64,000 nucleotides of DNA from positions 3,348,001-3,412,000 of the forward strand of contig NZ_JANADP010000001.1 of the NCBI RefSeq assembly GCF_024199945.1. Direction: 5' to 3'. This document shows positions 56,106-63,174 of the stretch, piece by piece. This DNA comes from Bradyrhizobium sp. CCGUVB4N. Lineage in GTDB: Bacteria; Pseudomonadota; Alphaproteobacteria; Rhizobiales; Xanthobacteraceae. The position numbers were made by a program, and so were the translations under genes. How positions within the stretch are numbered: the stretch's first letter is position 1; the number at the start of each line of letters is the position of its first letter. The notes under the pieces are model-generated. The model saw only the letters and a list, made by a program, of their open reading frames with translations. It ran no database searches and was not told the DNA's origin.

Positions 56106-57413
56106 TCATATCCTGTGGGTCACCAGCTTGAGGGCGCCGGCAATGCCGGTCGCGACCAGCAGGATCGCGGCCATTCCGATCATGCCGGCGTTGAAGGAGC
56201 CTGTCGTATCCTTCAGCAAGCCGACCATGTAGGGACCGACGAAGCCGCCGAACGCACCGACGGAGTTGATGAACGCGATGCCGCCGGCCGCGGCCGCACC
56301 CGTCAGGAAGCCCTGCGGGATGGTGTAGAACACCGTCCGCGCCGAGATCGTGCCGACCAGCGCCAGCGTCAGGCAGGCGAGCGCCGGAATAAGCGAGGTG
56401 AAGACGACGGACAGCGCAAGGCCGAGGGCACCGAGGATCAGCGCGGCCATGAGGTTGTAGATCTTCTGCCCTTTCCGATCGACCAGACGCGCCCAGAGCA
56501 GCATTCCGATCGTCGCGAACAGGTAGGGAATCGCCGAGAGCCAGCCGACTTCCATGTTGCTGAGGCCATGGCCTTTCAGGATCAGCGGCAGCCAGATGCC
56601 GATGCCGTAGGAGCCGATCGTGAAGGCGAAGGTGATCGCGGTGAGCATCAGCACCCGCGTGTCTTTCATCGCGGCCCACAGATCCTTCTTGGGCTTGTCG
56701 TGCTTGTCGCCGGCAAGCGCGGACAGGAGTGCGTGTCGCTCGGCTGACGTTAGCCACCTGGCCTGCTCGGGCGTATCGGCAAGCAGAACCAGGCAGAGAA
56801 CACCGAGCGCGCAGGCCGGAAGTCCCTCGACCAGAAACATCCACTGCCAGCCGGCAAAGCCCCAGAATCCGTCCATCCCGAGCAGGGCCGCCGAGATCGG
56901 ACTGCCGAGCAGCGAGGAGAGCGGCGTAGCCGCCATGAACAGGGCCAGCACGCTGGTGCGGTTCTTTTCAGGAAACCAGATCGAGATGTACCAGATCACA
57001 CCTGGAAAGAAGCCGGCCTCGAACACGCCGAGGAGGAAGCGGATCACATAGAAGCTGTAGGGGCCCGTCGCAAACGCGGTCGCAGCAGCAGCGAGGCCCC
57101 AGGTGATCATGATGCGTGCCAGCCAGCGCCGCGCGCCGAACCGGTACATCATCATGTTGCTGGGGACTTCCAGCAGGCAGTAGCTGAAGAACAGGATGCC
57201 GGCGCCCCAGCCGAATTGCGTGGCGCTCAGCCCGATATCCTTGTTCATTTGCAGCGCAGCAAAGCCGACGCTGGTGCGGTCGAGATAGTTGAAAAGATAG
57301 GCGAGGCCGAGCAGCGGGACCAGCCGCCAGGTGTTTTTGGAAATGGCGCTTGCGAGCAGTGCTGCATCCGGACTGCCGTCCGTGAACGATCCATTGGCCG
57401 TGATCTCGGTCAT
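56106..57413 (-). CDS. MFS transporter, anion:cation symporter type
   Basis: 435 residues from ATG at 57413, GGGAGG eight bases upstream; 31 codons more upstream are rejected. Twelve membrane helices. LLGLAYLFNYLDRTSVGFAA (helix 1) and SNMMMYRFGARRWLARIMIT, the loop 2-3 motif, are of the ACS family, whose members import organic anions such as tartrate, phthalate, 4-hydroxyphenylacetate or gluconate. The LysR gene divergent to it, 130 bases away, most likely controls it. The neighbouring operon also has a carboxylate transporter. Confidence 0.92.
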   Translation of the reverse strand: MTEITANGSFTDGSPDAALLASAISKNTWRLVPLLGLAYLFNYLDRTSVGFAALQMNKDIGLSATQFGWGAGILFFSYCLLEVPSNMMMYRFGARRWLARIMITWGLAAAATAFATGPYSFYVIRFLLGVFEAGFFPGVIWYISIWFPEKNRTSVLALFMAATPLSSLLGSPISAALLGMDGFWGFAGWQWMFLVEGLPACALGVLCLVLLADTPEQARWLTSAERHALLSALAGDKHDKPKKDLWAAMKDTRVLMLTAITFAFTIGSYGIGIWLPLILKGHGLSNMEVGWLSAIPYLFATIGMLLWARLVDRKGQKIYNLMAALILGALGLALSVVFTSLIPALACLTLALVGTISARTVFYTIPQGFLTGAAAAGGIAFINSVGAFGGFVGPYMVGLLKDTTGSFNAGMIGMAAILLVATGIAGALKLVTHRI

Positions 57414-57543: not shown

Positions 57544-58542
57544 GTGGACCTTCGCGACCTCACTTATTTCGAGGTGATCGCTGATCTCGGCCATATGGGC
57601 CGGGCCGCCGACAAGCTCGGACGCACCCAGCCCGCTCTGACCAAATGCATCCAGCGTCTTGAGGATGCAGTCGGGGCCGATCTGTTCGAGCGGACCGGAC
57701 GCGGCATCACCCTCACGCGCGTCGGCGAGGTGCTGCTGGCACGCGCGCGCCGCATGCGCGAGGCCATGGAGGAGTCGCTGCGTGAGGTGACTGATTTTGC
57801 CGCCGGCACCGCCGGACGCGTCGGGATCGGCTGCGGCGCGACGATGGGCGAGTACCTGCTGCCGCAGATCTGCCGCGCGATCATTGCGGATGCGCCTGGG
57901 CTTGCGATCGAAGTGCAGATCGGCATGAGCGGCGTGGTCAGGGCGGCGCTTCGCGAACGAGTCCTCGACGTTGCCATCGGTCCGATCCTTCCCTCCGACG
58001 AGCAGGAATTCGCGCACGAAGCCTTCGGCATGGACGACGTTGTCGTCGTCGCGGCAAAGGACCATCCGCTATGTGGCCAACGGCTCGCGATCGAGGATCT
58101 CGTCGCCGCGAAATGGGTGCTGCCGGCCCGCACCGTGGCGATGCGGCAATGGCTCGACAACGTCTTCGAGGCGCATGGCCTGCCGCCGCCCAATGTCCAG
58201 ATCGAGACCAACTCGATCACGACTTTGCCGAAGCTGATCGCCGATACGGCGCTGCTCAGCTTCACGTCGACGCGAAACCTGCATCCGCTTCGGCTGGGCA
58301 CCCAGCTCGACCGGTTGATGATCGACACCACGACGATGCGTCGGCCGCTCGGCTTCGTCACCCGCCGCGACGGTTATCTCTCTCCGGCCGCGCAGCGCGT
58401 CGTCGGCCTGCTCAAATCCAAGGGGCGTGACTTCCTCGAACAGGTCACGTTGCCTGGCATGACGGATGGCGCGGCAGCCAAGCCGACCATCGTGGTCAAC
58501 CGGACGGAGCGAGTCCATAAACGCGCGCGGCAGTCGCGCTGA
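57544..58542 (+). CDS. LysR family transcriptional regulator
   Basis: 332 residues from GTG at 57544, preceded by GGAGGAAGAG. N-terminal HTH: LRDLTYFEVIADLGHMGRAA, LGRTQPALTKCIQRLEDAVG. The inducer-binding domain begins near 92 (VGIGCGATMGEYLLPQICRA). It should bind the shared region with the MFS gene and respond to a small acid, perhaps the substrate of the operon beyond it. Its 3' end overlaps the convergent amidohydrolase gene by 47 bases. The last 30 residues are basic and unlike the family core. Confidence 0.94.
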   Translation: MDLRDLTYFEVIADLGHMGRAADKLGRTQPALTKCIQRLEDAVGADLFERTGRGITLTRVGEVLLARARRMREAMEESLREVTDFAAGTAGRVGIGCGATMGEYLLPQICRAIIADAPGLAIEVQIGMSGVVRAALRERVLDVAIGPILPSDEQEFAHEAFGMDDVVVVAAKDHPLCGQRLAIEDLVAAKWVLPARTVAMRQWLDNVFEAHGLPPPNVQIETNSITTLPKLIADTALLSFTSTRNLHPLRLGTQLDRLMIDTTTMRRPLGFVTRRDGYLSPAAQRVVGLLKSKGRDFLEQVTLPGMTDGAAAKPTIVVNRTERVHKRARQSR

Positions 58543-59560
58543 ACAGGTTCATGCGATCACTCTGGCTGGCGTGACGCGTCAGGCGTTTGAACGCATTCCA
58601 CACGGTGCCATATCCATAGGAGCCCTTGTCGACCGGAAAATTGCTTTCGAACATGCATCGCTGCGCGCCGAATGCCTCGATGCAAGTCTCGATGTAAGGA
58701 CGCCAGGCTGTGGCGAGCGTTTCCGAGGACGGCGGGACGTCGCGGGTCTCGAAACCGAATCCATTGATGCGCATGCCGAGACCGCCGAGCTTGACGCAGA
58801 CATTGTCGCAAGCTGCGAGCTCGCGGATGGCACGCGACCATGCGGCGAAAATGTCCTCGCGCTGGTCCCTGTAGGCGCCGATCCCCACGATGCCGCCGAG
58901 ATGATCGAGCACGATCGTCGTCCGCGGAAAGGCACGCGCAAGTGCGGTCAGCTCGTCGATTTGCGGATGGAACAGCCATGCGTCGAACACGAGCCCGAGG
59001 GATGCCAGTCGCGCAAAGCCGGCGCGGAATGTGCTGTCGCCGAGCAGGCCCGGCGGGCCGGCGCTCAACGGGTTCATCAGGCTTCGGTCGGCATCCCACA
59101 CCGTGATGTGTCGGATGCCGCGGAATCGTCCGGGCGCCGCGGCGATGTGAGCCTCCAGCACACAAGCGACCTGATCGCCGAGACATAGATCCGCATGGCC
59201 GACGATCCCGGCACAAAGTTGCCGCGGGCCGTATTGGCCGCTTGCGCTCATGGCTGCGACACCGTTGACGAATTCGGTCTCGCCGACGACGCGCATCGCG
59301 GCGGGGGCATCGGCGCGGTACATCGCCTGGCACTGCATGAAAACGCTGGCCATGATGGTGTGGCCGCTTGCCGCGATATCCGCGCGATATTCGTCGAACA
59401 GATATCTCCAGTTCGGCCGGTCCCAGAGATGATGATGGGCGTCGATGATCGGCAGCTCGGGTTCGAGCGCCTCCTCGACGCCGCGCGCCAGCCAATCCGG
59501 CCGCACGGCGAGATAGTTGCCGCCTGCTGCCTGGGATGACGTCACTTGGGATGACGTCAC
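58496..59560 (-). CDS. Amidohydrolase family 2 protein in the CoA-transferase operon
   Basis: 354 residues from GTG at 59560, which overlaps the stop of the upstream lyase gene (GTGA); GTG at 59545 would give 349 residues. Metal motif IIDAHHHLWD (His42-44), then VLDHLGG, and FESNFPVDKG near the end. The tandem 15-base repeat at the start gives VTSSQVTSSQ, so the true first residues are uncertain. A lactonase, decarboxylase or hydrolase step on a carboxylate is suggested by context. It is the last gene of the operon and converges on LysR. Confidence 0.87.
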   Translation of the reverse strand: MTSSQVTSSQAAGGNYLAVRPDWLARGVEEALEPELPIIDAHHHLWDRPNWRYLFDEYRADIAASGHTIMASVFMQCQAMYRADAPAAMRVVGETEFVNGVAAMSASGQYGPRQLCAGIVGHADLCLGDQVACVLEAHIAAAPGRFRGIRHITVWDADRSLMNPLSAGPPGLLGDSTFRAGFARLASLGLVFDAWLFHPQIDELTALARAFPRTTIVLDHLGGIVGIGAYRDQREDIFAAWSRAIRELAACDNVCVKLGGLGMRINGFGFETRDVPPSSETLATAWRPYIETCIEAFGAQRCMFESNFPVDKGSYGYGTVWNAFKRLTRHASQSDRMNLFSATAARVYGLAPSG

Positions 59561-59564
59561 TTGG
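59533..59564. repeat. Tandem 15-base duplication at the amidohydrolase start
   Basis: The unit GGGATGACGTCACTT occurs twice end to end (59533-59547 and 59548-59562), followed by GG. Each unit contains TGACGTCA, a palindrome, and on the minus strand one possible GTG start. Confidence 0.85.
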
Positions 59565-60390
59565 CGAAATCCCGCGGAGCGGGGCCGGTGTAGCGATAGG
59601 GGATGCCCGGCGGCATCGGGCCCTTGATGCGGCCGCCCTGCTGCGATTGCTCCCACGCATGGGCAAGGATACCGACCGAGCGCGAGAGAATGAACAGGCC
59701 GCGCCCCAGCGCAGGTGCAAAGCCCAGCTCCGAATAGATCACGGCGGTGGCGCCGTCGATGTTCATTGGAATCGTCCGGCCCTTGCGCTGCTGCATCACC
59801 GCTTCGACGCCGCGGCCGATCTCGGCGAAGCGGCCGGACACCACCCCGTTCGTGCGCGCGCTGTCGACCAGTGCGAGCAGTCGCGGCGAGCGGGGATCGA
59901 GCGGATGAAAGCGATGCCCGAACCCCGGTACGATCTTTCCGTTCGCCGCGATGAAGGCGTCGAGGCCCTGTTCGACAGCGGTCGTCAGTTCGGCGCCCGC
60001 GTCCTGGCGCTTCGCGATGTCGGCGTACAGCTCCATGCATTGTTCGCCGGCGCCACCATGAATGTCGTCGAGCACGTTGATGGCCGAGGCCATCGCGCCG
60101 TTGAGGGGAAGGCCGCATGTCACGGCCATCCGCCCGATCGCAATCGACGGCGCCTGCGGACCGTGGTCCACCGCGGCGACCAGTGCTGCTTCCAGCAGTG
60201 AGCCTTGCTCGGGCGTGGGCAGATCGCCCTTCAGCATCAGCCACATCATCTGCGGAAACGACACCCGGCCGATCAGTTGCTCGATCGGAAAGCCGCGGAA
60301 GCGGATCACGCCGGGCTTCATGTCGATGATGTCGGTCGACCACCATTGGGTGGCCTTTTGCAGCAGGTCTGCGGAGCCTTGATCGGTCAT
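59557..60390 (-). CDS. Citrate-synthase-fold protein, citryl-CoA lyase-like
   Basis: 277 residues, about 150 shorter than citrate synthase. Active-site residues kept: His111 in DDIHGGAGEQC, His159 in VPGFGHRFHPLD, and Asp212 in PMNIDGATAVIYSELG (the spots of His274, His320 and Asp375 in the pig enzyme by pattern). The missing N-terminal part and the small size are as in citryl-CoA lyases, which split citryl-CoA into acetyl-CoA and oxaloacetate. ATG at 60390 lies 13 bases after the CoA-transferase stop. Citrate synthase activity cannot be ruled out, but the context favours lyase (inference). Confidence 0.82.
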   Translation of the reverse strand: MTDQGSADLLQKATQWWSTDIIDMKPGVIRFRGFPIEQLIGRVSFPQMMWLMLKGDLPTPEQGSLLEAALVAAVDHGPQAPSIAIGRMAVTCGLPLNGAMASAINVLDDIHGGAGEQCMELYADIAKRQDAGAELTTAVEQGLDAFIAANGKIVPGFGHRFHPLDPRSPRLLALVDSARTNGVVSGRFAEIGRGVEAVMQQRKGRTIPMNIDGATAVIYSELGFAPALGRGLFILSRSVGILAHAWEQSQQGGRIKGPMPPGIPYRYTGPAPRDFAK

Positions 60391-60403
60391 GGAATCTGTC
60401 CTC

Positions 60404-61681
60404 TTACGTGCTTGAAGTTTCGGCGCGCGCCTTCAGGTCCGGCATCTTGACGGTCTCTTTCACCGTCGGCCGGTTGTCGAAGGCGACGACGCCGCGTTGG
60501 CCGAGTGCTGCGATCTCGCCGTCCGCGAAGCCGAGTTGCCTGAGCCATCTCTCAGTGTCCTGGCCGAGGCTCGGTGGTGGCGACGGCTCCGGATAGTCGG
60601 TCTCGAGCCGGAAGCCAGGTCGGGTGACCCGCATCGTCTGTCCGCCGGTCACCGTCGCATTCAGATGCTCCACGAATTTGCGACCGACGATCTGCTCTTC
60701 CTTCAGCACCTCCGGCACGCTCAGGACACAGCCCGCCGGAACGCCCTTGGCGTTGAACAGCGCCTCCCATTCGGCGGCGGATTTGGCGGCGAGGGCGGCT
60801 TCGAGCTCGCGCTTCAGGGCAACGCGATAGTCCTTGCGCGACTGCCGTTCGCTGAACCGCGGATCGGACTTCAACTCGGGCTTTCCGACGATGTCGCAAA
60901 GCGCCTCGTACTGCTTCTGCTCGTTGGCCGCGATGTTGAGCGGCCCGGAGCCGGTCGCAAACGTGCCGGACGGAGCCGCCGTGAAATTCTCGTTGCCGAT
61001 CGGCTGCGGATCGACATTGCCGTTGAGGTGATTGGAGACCACCCAGCCCATGGCGGCCAGGGTCGATTCGAGCAGCGAGACGTCGATCTTCCGCCCGCGC
61101 CCGCTCTGGCGCTGCTCGACCAGCGCCGCCGTGATTGCAAAGGATGCGGTGAGGCCCGCAATGGTGTCGGCGATCGGAAAGCCGGTGCGCAGGGGCGCCG
61201 TCTCGGCGTCGCCCGTGACGCTCATGACGCCGGACAATCCCTGAACGATCTGATCGTAAGCGGGCCGGCCCACCCAGGGGCCGTCCTGTCCAAAGCCCGA
61301 GATGGCACAATAGACGATGCGCGGATTGCGCCTTGCGAGCACCTCGTAGCCGAGCCCCAGCCGCTCCATCACCTTCGGGCGGAAATTCTCCAGCACGACG
61401 TCCGCCGTCTCGACGAGGCGCAGGAAAATCTCCTTGCCTTCGTCGGCCTTGAAATCGATCGCGACGGATTGCTTGTCCGCGTTCACCGCGACGAAGGACA
61501 GCCCCATCAGGTTCTTCGCCATGGCCGGATCAGCGCCGAGCCGGCGCGCCAGATCGCCGCCCTTCGGATTCTCGATCTTGATGACCTCGGCGCCGAGACG
61601 CGCAAGCTGATAGCCGCAGAACGGACCGGCCAGCACGTTGGAGAGATCGAGGATGCGAATGCCGGCGAGGGGCAATGTCAT
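60404..61681 (-). CDS. Family III (CaiB/BaiF) CoA-transferase
   Basis: 425 residues from ATG at 61681 with GGAGGACACCAC upstream; a long in-frame upstream stretch is antisense-like and rejected. IRILDLSNVLAGPFCGYQLA and IKIENPKGGDLARRLG are the family's CoA-binding start; the nucleophile is probably Asp172 in GFPIADTIAG. In known relatives it moves CoA from acetyl- or succinyl-CoA to a carboxylic acid. Tight linkage with the citryl-CoA-lyase-like gene and a carboxylate transporter suggests it makes the CoA ester that is then cleaved. Confidence 0.94.
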   Translation of the reverse strand: MTLPLAGIRILDLSNVLAGPFCGYQLARLGAEVIKIENPKGGDLARRLGADPAMAKNLMGLSFVAVNADKQSVAIDFKADEGKEIFLRLVETADVVLENFRPKVMERLGLGYEVLARRNPRIVYCAISGFGQDGPWVGRPAYDQIVQGLSGVMSVTGDAETAPLRTGFPIADTIAGLTASFAITAALVEQRQSGRGRKIDVSLLESTLAAMGWVVSNHLNGNVDPQPIGNENFTAAPSGTFATGSGPLNIAANEQKQYEALCDIVGKPELKSDPRFSERQSRKDYRVALKRELEAALAAKSAAEWEALFNAKGVPAGCVLSVPEVLKEEQIVGRKFVEHLNATVTGGQTMRVTRPGFRLETDYPEPSPPPSLGQDTERWLRQLGFADGEIAALGQRGVVAFDNRPTVKETVKMPDLKARAETSST

Positions 61682-61716
61682 GTGGTGTCCTCCGGATGAC
61701 GAAAATGTGCGAGAGA

Positions 61717-63174
61717 TCAGACGAGTCCGAGCCAGTGCCACCAGGTCGCGGCGCACAGCGCATAGAGCAGGCAGGCGACGATGCAGATGATCACGCCGAC
61801 TTTCGGGAAGTCTTCGACGCGAAGCCGGCCGGTGCCATAGACGAGGATGTTCGGCAGGGTGTTGTAGAACATCAGCAGCGGGTAGCCGCCGATGATCATG
61901 CCGGCCGGCAGCGCCAGCGCGACCGGGTTGACGCCCGCAGTCGTCGCCATTGCCAGGATGATCGGCAGCAGGGCGGTCGCCATGGCGGTCGTGCCGACGA
62001 ACATCACATGCATGAACTGCACGATGAACATCACGACCACGATGACGACCAGCGCCGAGGCACCGGCGAGGCCAAGCGCGTGGAAGATCGAATTCGCCAG
62101 CCAGTTGGCGGCGCCGGTCTTCAGCAGAATGTCGCCGAGCGAGACGCCGCCGCCCGCAATCAGCAGCACCTGCCAGGAGACGCCTTTGTTGGCATCGTTC
62201 CAGTCCATCACGCCGAAGCGCGGCAGAAACAGGAGGCAGGCCCCCATCAGGCAGACGACGGTCGTGTCCAGTCCGGTCAGACCCTGCGTCGCCCAGAGGC
62301 AGGTCACAAGGACGAACACGGTCAGCGCGCGCCATTCGGCGGATGTCATCCGGCCCATCGCGGCGAGATTCTGCGTTATCCGTGCGTCGGCCTGCTCGTG
62401 ACCGGCTTTGAATTCCGGCGGAAACACCCGCTGGATCACCCACCAGGTGAACAGGGTCATCGCCAGCGCCGGCGGGAATCCATAGAGCAGCCATTCGGCA
62501 TAGGTGATGGTGTGGCCGCTCGTCTTGGCGACGAACTCGACCGTGACGGGATTCGGCACCGTGGCCGTCAGCACACCGGCGCCGATCGTCGCGTTCGTCA
62601 TCGTCAAGGTGAGGAGCAGGTTGATCGCAAACGGCGAGCGCGCGCCGGCTCCGAAGATCGTCAGGATACTGAGGCATTCCGGCAGCAGGATTGCCGTGCG
62701 CGCCGTCGACGACGGCACGAGGAAGGCGAGGGCGATATTGACCAGCGTCACGCCGAGCGTGATCCGTGTCGGCTCGCTGCCGAAGCGCGCCAGGATGATG
62801 TAGGTGATCCGCTCGGCAAGGCGCGTCTTCACCATTGCGGTCGCGAGGATGAAGGCGCCGACGATCAGATACACCGGCGAGGCGGAGAAGCCGTCGAGCG
62901 CAGTCCGCAGCGGGGCCGTTCCGGTCAGCACCGCAAGCGGAACGACCATCAGGCTCGCGATCGCGAGCGGTATCGCTTCGGTCAGATAGAGCACGAAAAT
63001 GCCCCCGAACAGCGCCAGCGCCTTGTGGCCCTGCAAGGACAGCGTCTCCGGGGTGGGGCTGAGCCAGATGGCGGCCGCGACGACGACGGCGAGGGGAACG
63101 CCGATCGCCCTCAGCATCGCCTCCAGCGATCGGGGCGCGTGCGCGCCGGCCTCCGCGTGAGCGTGAGATGACAC
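61717..63174 (-). CDS. DASS/SLC13 family di- or tricarboxylate transporter
   Basis: 485 residues from GTG at 63174, with AGGGAGAA upstream. About 12 membrane segments; sodium/substrate hairpins are FLVPSSTARTAILLPECLS and FMHVMFVGTTAMATALLPII, the repeat-related S-x-T motifs of the family. Ends 35 bases before the CoA-transferase gene, so it opens the operon. It would bring in succinate, malate, citrate or a similar acid with sodium. Which acid cannot be told. Confidence 0.93.
   Translation of the reverse strand: MSSHAHAEAGAHAPRSLEAMLRAIGVPLAVVVAAAIWLSPTPETLSLQGHKALALFGGIFVLYLTEAIPLAIASLMVVPLAVLTGTAPLRTALDGFSASPVYLIVGAFILATAMVKTRLAERITYIILARFGSEPTRITLGVTLVNIALAFLVPSSTARTAILLPECLSILTIFGAGARSPFAINLLLTLTMTNATIGAGVLTATVPNPVTVEFVAKTSGHTITYAEWLLYGFPPALAMTLFTWWVIQRVFPPEFKAGHEQADARITQNLAAMGRMTSAEWRALTVFVLVTCLWATQGLTGLDTTVVCLMGACLLFLPRFGVMDWNDANKGVSWQVLLIAGGGVSLGDILLKTGAANWLANSIFHALGLAGASALVVIVVVMFIVQFMHVMFVGTTAMATALLPIILAMATTAGVNPVALALPAGMIIGGYPLLMFYNTLPNILVYGTGRLRVEDFPKVGVIICIVACLLYALCAATWWHWLGLV

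Follow-up and report, generated by a model that had tools for sequence, protein, structure and literature searches.

We analysed a compact gene unit in a 64,000-nucleotide stretch of DNA (the window, meaning this whole stretch), which is carried by a 9.2-Mb Bradyrhizobium-like contig (Bradyrhizobium sp. CCGUVB4N, NZ_JANADP010000001.1, positions 3,348,001-3,412,000). Genes for a DASS-family symporter, a CaiB/BaiF-type CoA-transferase, a short lyase with citrate-synthase fold and an Amidohydro_2 protein are closely spaced on the minus strand, with gaps of 35 bases (DASS/CaiB) and 13 bases (CaiB/lyase) and, if the GTG at 59560 is used, a 4-base overlap of lyase and amidohydrolase genes. The coordinates, strand and spacing from which the initial annotation of the window had deduced a four-gene operon were correct. 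A LysR-type regulator gene and an MFS permease gene, both unmentioned in that annotation, are conserved along with the operon. In window coordinates, the genes are:

61717-63174, minus strand: DASS-family anion:sodium symporter (485 aa, GTG start, alternative ATG at 63117; PF00939 293.5 bits; TIGR00785 284.7 bits, above the cut-off of 198.6)
60404-61681, minus strand: CaiB/BaiF-type (family III) CoA-transferase (425 aa; PF02515 398 bits, gathering score 23.3)
59557-60390, minus strand: citrate-synthase-fold, citryl-CoA-lyase-type lyase (277 aa; PF00285; NF004864 461 bits)
58496-59560 or 58496-59545, minus strand: Amidohydro_2 protein, proposed lactonase (354 or 349 aa; PF04909 134.9 bits)
57544-58542, plus strand: LysR-type regulator, convergent with the operon, its 3' end overlapping that of the amidohydrolase gene by 47 bases
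56106-57413, minus strand: MFS permease, divergent from the LysR gene and a possible second transporter of the regulon (PF07690 161.8 bits; TIGR00893 314.1 bits, below the cut-off of 395)

The two candidate GTG starts of the amidohydrolase gene stem from a 15-base tandem duplication at 59531-59560 (GTGACGTCATCCCAA; the second copy differs in its last base).

The lyase and its CoA-transferase partner

The lyase scored 461.1 bits against the NCBIfam citryl-CoA lyase model NF004864 (cut-off 261), and the citryl-CoA lyase of H. thermophilus (6hxp) was its top sequence match among solved structures. Its AlphaFold2 model (20 rows; mean predicted local distance difference test score, pLDDT, of 92.3) matched 6hxp with a Z of 25.6 and a root mean square deviation of 2.2 over 231 residues at 32% identity; among the 50 matches shown, ATP-citrate-lyase structures reached Z 22.3-24.2 and citrate synthases at most 18.6. 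Residues His111, His159 and Asp212, described as intact in the initial annotation, are present and invariant in the 20-row subfamily alignment, as are His76, Arg167 and Arg237. We take over the catalytic roles of the first three from citrate synthase, and assume that the other three correspond to its citrate-binding positions. All six residues are retained in 19 family rows from all main gene contexts, which give no hint of differing active sites. By score and fold the protein belongs to the NCBIfam citryl-CoA lyase family, and it may cleave citryl-CoA itself. A distant group of short citrate-synthase-fold proteins (L024-L034, e.g. L028:1429-2199; about 30% identity), several of them encoded beside a CaiB gene, has lost the residues corresponding to His111 and Asp212 in the aligned rows and matches the citryl-CoA lyase model below its cut-off; these proteins probably do something else.

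The transferase is a member of family III. Its best NCBIfam model, succinate--glutarate CoA-transferase (NF052585, SucGlutTfsCaiB), gave 294 bits at a cut-off of 750 and marks a relative only, and the succinyl-CoA:mesaconate CoA-transferase model gave 218 bits (cut-off 700). Among its solved relatives 10uh was best, and the hydroxymethylglutarate CoA-transferases 9br6 and 9br7 ranked third and fourth.

Distribution and gene neighbourhoods

The lyase is patchily distributed: 17 of 296 genomes of the bacterial family exceed its cut-off, as do at least three genomes of the same genus, the window's own included (among 24 listed), and 22 of 398 genomes in an even draw of the phylum. We compared neighbourhoods using six-frame codon models, which are uncurated and may miss genes (the lyase gene, seen by tblastn but not called in L081, L086, L120 and other loci; a TIM barrel gene, TIM2, in L198); most gene labels derive from blastp clustering, with few representatives per cluster scored against profiles.

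In the nine nearest named loci (L056-L064), all from Bradyrhizobium, the order DASS-CaiB-lyase-amidohydrolase-LysR-MFS is kept with two exceptions, L059, which is taken up below, and L063, in which the MFS match is split over two frames. DASS protein identity is 89.7-96.1% across all nine, the LysR and MFS genes are present in each, and the amidohydrolase gene is found in eight of them and in Caldimonas (L087, 60% identity). Linkage in relatives, to which the initial annotation had tied its reading, is kept in Bradyrhizobium, but all four genes were seen linked only there, and elsewhere the recurring unit is the transferase-lyase pair. In 105 of 128 lyase loci, CaiB is encoded on the same strand no more than 400 bases from the lyase gene; this sample is biased, consists mostly of Bradyrhizobium and Mesorhizobium and includes loci picked via the gene for a thiamine diphosphate (ThDP) enzyme described below. 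The less biased phylum draw gave 15 of 22 lyase genomes (the window's and 14 of 21 others). Of the 23 lyase loci without an adjacent CaiB gene, four have one further away (L046, L049, L073, L077), 16 are ThDP clusters with an acylating-type aldehyde dehydrogenase and no same-strand CaiB match, and in the genome of L169 the ThDP gene is located on a different contig. The conserved core is thus the transferase-lyase pair, around which transporters and lactonase-type genes vary. In the open-access literature we found no paper that pairs a citryl-CoA lyase with CaiB.

Transporters around the pair are of DASS, TctABC, TRAP, TctC-receptor or ABC type, depending on the locus; TctABC (tricarboxylate type by its Pfam name, scored in L110) stands beside the pair in Mesorhizobium and other loci. 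IclR and LysR regulators occur in the clusters. Two unrelated lactonase-type families accompany the lyase, namely Amidohydro_2 in Bradyrhizobium and Caldimonas and SMP-30/gluconolactonase (SMP-30/SGL) with the pair in L036, L037, L073, L077 and L123 (four Pfam-scored, L077 by clustering only). This second lactonase-type family, found with the pair in five other loci, lends support to the initial annotation's suggestion that the amidohydrolase opens a lactone, an activity we infer from its family and context.

Other neighbours were seen in single clades. AcnA-type aconitase genes lie near the lyase gene in L039, L040, L046 and L049 (one scored), together with old yellow enzyme (OYE)/short-chain dehydrogenase (SDR) genes or alcohol and aldehyde dehydrogenase genes. 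Mevalonate or 3-hydroxy-3-methylglutarate (HMG), hinted at as substrate by the alcohol and semialdehyde dehydrogenases in L046 and L049, finds no support in other contexts. In Candidimonas (L075, L080, L081) transferase and lyase genes occur with those of a 2-hydroxyacid dehydrogenase and an RraA/CHA-aldolase-like protein (scored in L081), and in a Hyphomicrobiaceae bin (L065) they are followed by genes for three apparent molybdenum hydroxylase subunits, as judged by eye.

Clusters with a ThDP enzyme and quinate/shikimate-type genes

For the lyase phylogeny, 110 of 116 rows were kept in the alignment (six distant or unmatched rows dropped), and the tree was calculated from 73 of these plus two outgroup rows after removal of 37 closely related Bradyrhizobium and Mesorhizobium-type rows. 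The sister group (97/85) of the Bradyrhizobium lyases and that of L065 comprises seven lyases, four from Aromatoleum/Azoarcus, one from Ramlibacter and two from metagenome bins; a ThDP enzyme is encoded beside all seven. The four Aromatoleum/Azoarcus loci also hold AroE-like, AroD and split QuiC-like genes, and in L066, L069 and L082 the pair has a called aldehyde dehydrogenase gene nearby. Microbacterium L103 and bin L130 combine the ThDP enzyme with AroQ or AroD and an aldehyde dehydrogenase nearest to acylating models. The Rhodobacteraceae clusters encode a TRAP transporter, Gfo/Idh/MocA-type dehydrogenases, a QuiC-like protein, TIM2 (the second AP_endonuc_2 TIM barrel of these clusters), an acylating-type aldehyde dehydrogenase, the ThDP enzyme and, in some cases, a shikimate-dehydrogenase-family protein. 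Across 18 Rhodobacteraceae ThDP loci, our gene calls recovered the aldehyde dehydrogenase in all 18 and TIM2 and the QuiC-like gene in 17 each, and the lyase lies in the same fetched stretch in 15. In these clusters the aldehyde dehydrogenase, apparently an acylating one, takes the place of the transferase.

The model for QuiC (3-dehydroshikimate dehydratase, DSD; NF042435) has a narrow cut-off of 1200 bits, which the ThDP-cluster gene of L165 did not reach (452.6 bits) and below which even the top-scoring copy of the window's genome falls, at 721.7 bits. Residues E134, D165, Q191 and E239 of QuiC presumably bind the metal. All four are listed in an excerpt of PMC7442255. In 15 of 17 Rhodobacteraceae copies examined, both E134 and D165 of the QuiC-like TIM domain are changed (L165, L166, L169, L171, L198-L203, L205-L207, L209, L212), while the L210 copy retains all four residues and that of L211 has D165 and Q191 changed. 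The four Aromatoleum/Azoarcus copies retain E134, D165 and Q191, with His168 replaced by Gln and, in one of them, E239 by D. A role for the QuiC-like gene as plain protocatechuate maker in all clusters is weakened by these metal-site changes. Because E134 and D165 are changed in most Rhodobacteraceae copies while 19 TIM2 rows retain their E/D/E pattern, TIM2 appears to be the better candidate for an elimination step in Rhodobacteraceae. Eight of 18 listed fused QuiC-like copies show all three His/His/Glu motifs like those of 4-hydroxyphenylpyruvate dioxygenase (HPPD; strict pattern). No ring-cleavage dioxygenase was noticed among the annotated cluster genes, at which no dedicated search was aimed.

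The best scores of the ThDP enzyme are those against acetolactate synthases, and they lie below cut-off. A His in the motif FGLCGHT is present in 26 of 27 rows, the remaining row being short at its start; counted from the start of the match to cyclohexane-1,2-dione hydrolase (CDH, 2pgn), on the assumption of no intervening gap and not read from the alignment itself, it lies near CDH His28. Variants of CDH with the H28A exchange are named in a passage of PMC12247030. The enzyme was also considered as CDH itself; this was rejected, with 180.8 bits to 2pgn, no better than to many other ThDP enzymes.

Four of the 398 genomes in the phylum draw have the ThDP enzyme, and each of them is one of the 22 lyase genomes (Fisher 7e-6, uncorrected for kinship). 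In family f17, to which genome G606 belongs, the ThDP enzyme occurs in 18 of 295 genomes, and 16 of these 18 have the lyase as compared with 65 of 295 overall (Fisher 6.6e-10, likewise uncorrected). The two exceptions, G693 and G790 (loci L211 and L210), lack the lyase and carry an HMG-CoA lyase-like gene beside those for TIM2, aldehyde dehydrogenase, the ThDP enzyme and the QuiC-like protein; both replacing genes score above the HMG-CoA lyase cut-off of 246 (NF004283, 310.8 and 292.1 bits). The HMG-CoA lyase family has a different fold and frees acetyl-CoA from a 3-hydroxyacyl-CoA. This replacement speaks for the cleavage direction and, although seen in two genomes only, supports the cleavage step more strongly than any other finding.

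Predicted pathway, candidate substrates and known systems

From families, catalytic residues, fold and gene context, we lean towards reading the operon as serving the breakdown of an external 2-substituted malate by retro-Claisen cleavage, a judgement that covers substrate class and mechanism and within which part of the probability of the alternatives below is contained. The substrate would be a citrate-like acid, HOOC-CH2-C(OH)(COOH)-R, imported by the DASS symporter and perhaps also by the MFS permease. Where present, the amidohydrolase would open a lactone form of the acid, and the CaiB-type transferase would move CoA onto the CH2-COOH arm, probably from succinyl-CoA. The lyase would then split X-C(OH)(COOH)-CH2-CO-SCoA into acetyl-CoA and the 2-oxo acid R-CO-COOH. 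Uptake, CaiB-type activation and carbon-carbon cleavage by a short citryl-CoA-lyase-like enzyme had been proposed in the initial annotation, and family scores, the lyase model and the linked genes in relatives support this sequence. Its substrate list (citrate, citramalate, methylcitrate or an aromatic-derived acid) needs homocitrate and itatartarate added.

Our tentative first choice of substrate, held with rather low confidence, is homocitrate or its gamma-lactone, which would yield acetyl-CoA and 2-oxoglutarate. We favour it because it ties together the nearest relatives, the lactonase-type genes and the biology of the organism. Homocitrate forms a gamma-lactone. With NifV encoded in the window's genome (502.7 bits, cut-off 462.9) 1.5 kb from nifH, the organism is able to make its own homocitrate, and rhizobia can also receive it from plants, according to an excerpt of PMC8073898. 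The window operon most likely takes up the ready-made acid, because no ThDP enzyme of the cluster type was found in the window's genome at E 1e-170 and the QuiC-like protein of 721.7 bits is encoded elsewhere in it.

In the relatives' clusters, the ThDP enzyme would cleave a quinate/shikimate-type ring to an aldehyde, and an aldehyde dehydrogenase with CaiB, or an acylating aldehyde dehydrogenase alone, would convert this to the acyl-CoA split by the lyase. Access to the CoA ester from an acid, via CaiB, or apparently from an aldehyde, via the acylating dehydrogenase, is consistent with a ThDP reaction whose product carries its aldehyde group beside the CH2. A speculative extension, which we regard as less probable than homocitrate use as such, is that this lyase forms the last step of a so far undescribed and perhaps oxygen-independent route by which the ring of quinate/shikimate-type acids is cleaved, and that the Bradyrhizobium operon is a shortened version using free homocitrate or its lactone, with nodules or nitrogen-fixing cells as the source. 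The C(OH)(COOH) centre is already present in quinate, and DSD performs on dehydroshikimate the same elimination as would be needed here. A dehydrogenase would form 3-dehydroquinate, with AroD/AroQ linking shikimate, and a DSD-like TIM barrel would remove the C5 hydroxyl to give 1-hydroxy-3,4-dioxocyclohexanecarboxylate, a ring 1,2-dione. With E134 and D165 lost from most Rhodobacteraceae QuiC-like domains, this dehydration would there need another enzyme, for which TIM2 is the candidate. IolD and CDH are precedents for ThDP-dependent hydrolysis of ring 1,2-diones; a ThDP hydrolase would here open the ring to homocitrate semialdehyde, to be converted to homocitryl-CoA, which the lyase or the HMG-CoA-lyase relative would split into acetyl-CoA and 2-oxoglutarate. 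In the open-access literature we found no paper whose listing places quinate and homocitrate in a single pathway.

Several findings weigh against the reading of the operon as a catabolic retro-Claisen unit. The transferase reaches no functional NCBIfam equivalog at cut-off. Nor does the amidohydrolase reach any named lactonase model at cut-off (L-fucono-1,5-lactonase, NF052480: 85.7 bits, and 74.8 bits for the Caldimonas copy, cut-off 400); its structure model is poor (mean pLDDT 56.6), and in L059 no amidohydrolase match lies between lyase and LysR genes, the rest of the unit being present. In L163 and L170 the lyase is present, but both CaiB and the ThDP set are absent. No aldehyde dehydrogenase gene was called in three of the four Aromatoleum/Azoarcus loci (L067, L068, L071), and elsewhere the label 'acylating' denotes the best model only, below its cut-off (acylating sulfoacetaldehyde dehydrogenase, NF047625: L130 478.3, L165 430.1 and L103 459.4 bits, cut-off 600). 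To these add the altered metal sites of the QuiC-like domains and the finding that, in six of 18 ThDP loci, the ThDP gene is followed by one for an HpaI-type aldolase (the two copies scored fell below cut-off), which would suit a hydroxylated keto acid better than plain 2-oxoglutarate. Because the neighbour genes differ between clades (FAD dehydrogenase, aconitase, RraA/CHA-aldolase-like), the lyase family may serve several acids.

The best rival to homocitrate, itself unlikely, is itatartarate with its fungal lactone 2-hydroxyparaconate, a natural lactone of a 2-substituted malate by structure. A lactonase, the transferase (via itatartaryl-CoA) and the lyase would here yield acetyl-CoA and hydroxypyruvate, in keeping with the recurring lactonase-type genes; a 2-hydroxyparaconate lactonase has been proposed in the itaconate cluster of P. 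aeruginosa, alongside a CoA-transferase and a citramalyl-CoA lyase (passages of PMC12290011). However, the ThDP/quinate-type clusters of the nearest lyases would be left unexplained. Citrate comes next, at slightly lower probability: a succinyl-CoA:citrate CoA-transferase and a true citryl-CoA lyase would form an ATP-free route to acetyl-CoA and oxaloacetate, as the NCBIfam assignment, the best match to 6hxp and the TctABC and DASS transporters would suit. Even in the ThDP clusters, decarboxylation of an oxalocitramalate-type keto acid could give an aldehyde leading to citryl-CoA, but the annotated genes, among which no aimed search was made, revealed no ring-cleavage dioxygenase. Moreover, an aerobe with a tricarboxylic acid cycle uses citrate without CoA activation, and the lactonase-type genes would be unexplained because citrate, to our knowledge, forms no gamma-lactone.

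We consider it improbable that the pair handles citramalate or another simple 2-alkylmalate, giving acetyl-CoA and pyruvate or a longer keto acid. Some citramalate/mesaconate CoA-transferases are of the CaiB type, and the window transferase gave 218 bits against the mesaconate model, yet this is far below the cut-off, and lactonase-type genes and tricarboxylate-type transporters would have no explanation. Excerpts of PMC8307300 and PMC12290011 describe CoA-transferases for citramalate and mesaconate, with lyases that give acetyl-CoA and pyruvate. That the lyase runs as a synthase, with the transferase freeing the resulting citrate-like acid from CoA, is very improbable: the citrate-synthase fold favours condensation in most relatives and the CoA-transferase reaction is reversible, but uptake transporters, IclR/LysR regulators and lactonase-type genes point to catabolism, the HMG-CoA-lyase relative as replacement points to cleavage, and the model is nearest to lyases.

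With homocitrate as the favoured substrate, a homocitrate-degrading operon in a nitrogen-fixing Bradyrhizobium would touch the supply of a part of the nitrogenase cofactor, and the ThDP clusters would represent a second catabolic route for the common plant acids quinate and shikimate, one that is non-aromatic. For the substrate class as a whole, the reading would imply widespread ATP-free use of citrate-like acids by proteins that are named 'citryl-CoA lyase', yet whose usual partner is a CoA-transferase and whose context looks catabolic. What is new is a citrate-synthase-fold lyase in a CoA-transferase-primed role, in which we know of no other case of this fold, and an apparent link to hydroaromatic catabolism. 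Priming by a CoA-transferase, which the initial annotation had called unusual, is not so in itself: because the itaconate and citramalate pathways are established cases of transferase activation with a lyase acting next (parts of PMC12290011 and PMC8307300), 'unusual' applies to the type of lyase and not to the principle.

The ThDP clusters resemble CDH- and inositol-type ThDP chemistry in their Gfo/Idh/MocA-type dehydrogenases (65-138 bits to the IolG model, below cut-off), their AP_endonuc_2 TIM barrel and the invariant His near the position of CDH His28, whereas their ThDP enzyme is no closer to CDH than to many other solved relatives. Among transferase-lyase systems, the itaconate lyase is of the CitE type and not of citrate-synthase fold, and the fold of citramalyl-CoA lyase likewise differs from that of the window lyase. 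In the itaconate pathway (Ict, Ich, Ccl), activation by a CoA-transferase precedes lyase cleavage to acetyl-CoA and a 2-oxo acid, according to passages of PMC12290011. The same passages propose a lactonase in the P. aeruginosa cluster, a further likeness to the window operon, which, unlike the itaconate cluster, has no hydratase gene. Succinyl-CoA:citramalate CoA-transferase and citramalyl-CoA lyase also form a transferase-lyase pair acting on a 2-alkylmalate, with a different substrate (excerpt of PMC8307300). The stand-alone citryl-CoA lyase of H. thermophilus shares with the window lyase the short citrate-synthase-type fold and the His/His/Asp positions. In H. thermophilus, however, an ATP-dependent citryl-CoA synthetase makes the CoA ester in the course of CO2 fixation, whereas in the window the partner is a transferase of CaiB type and the genes appear to form a catabolic set.

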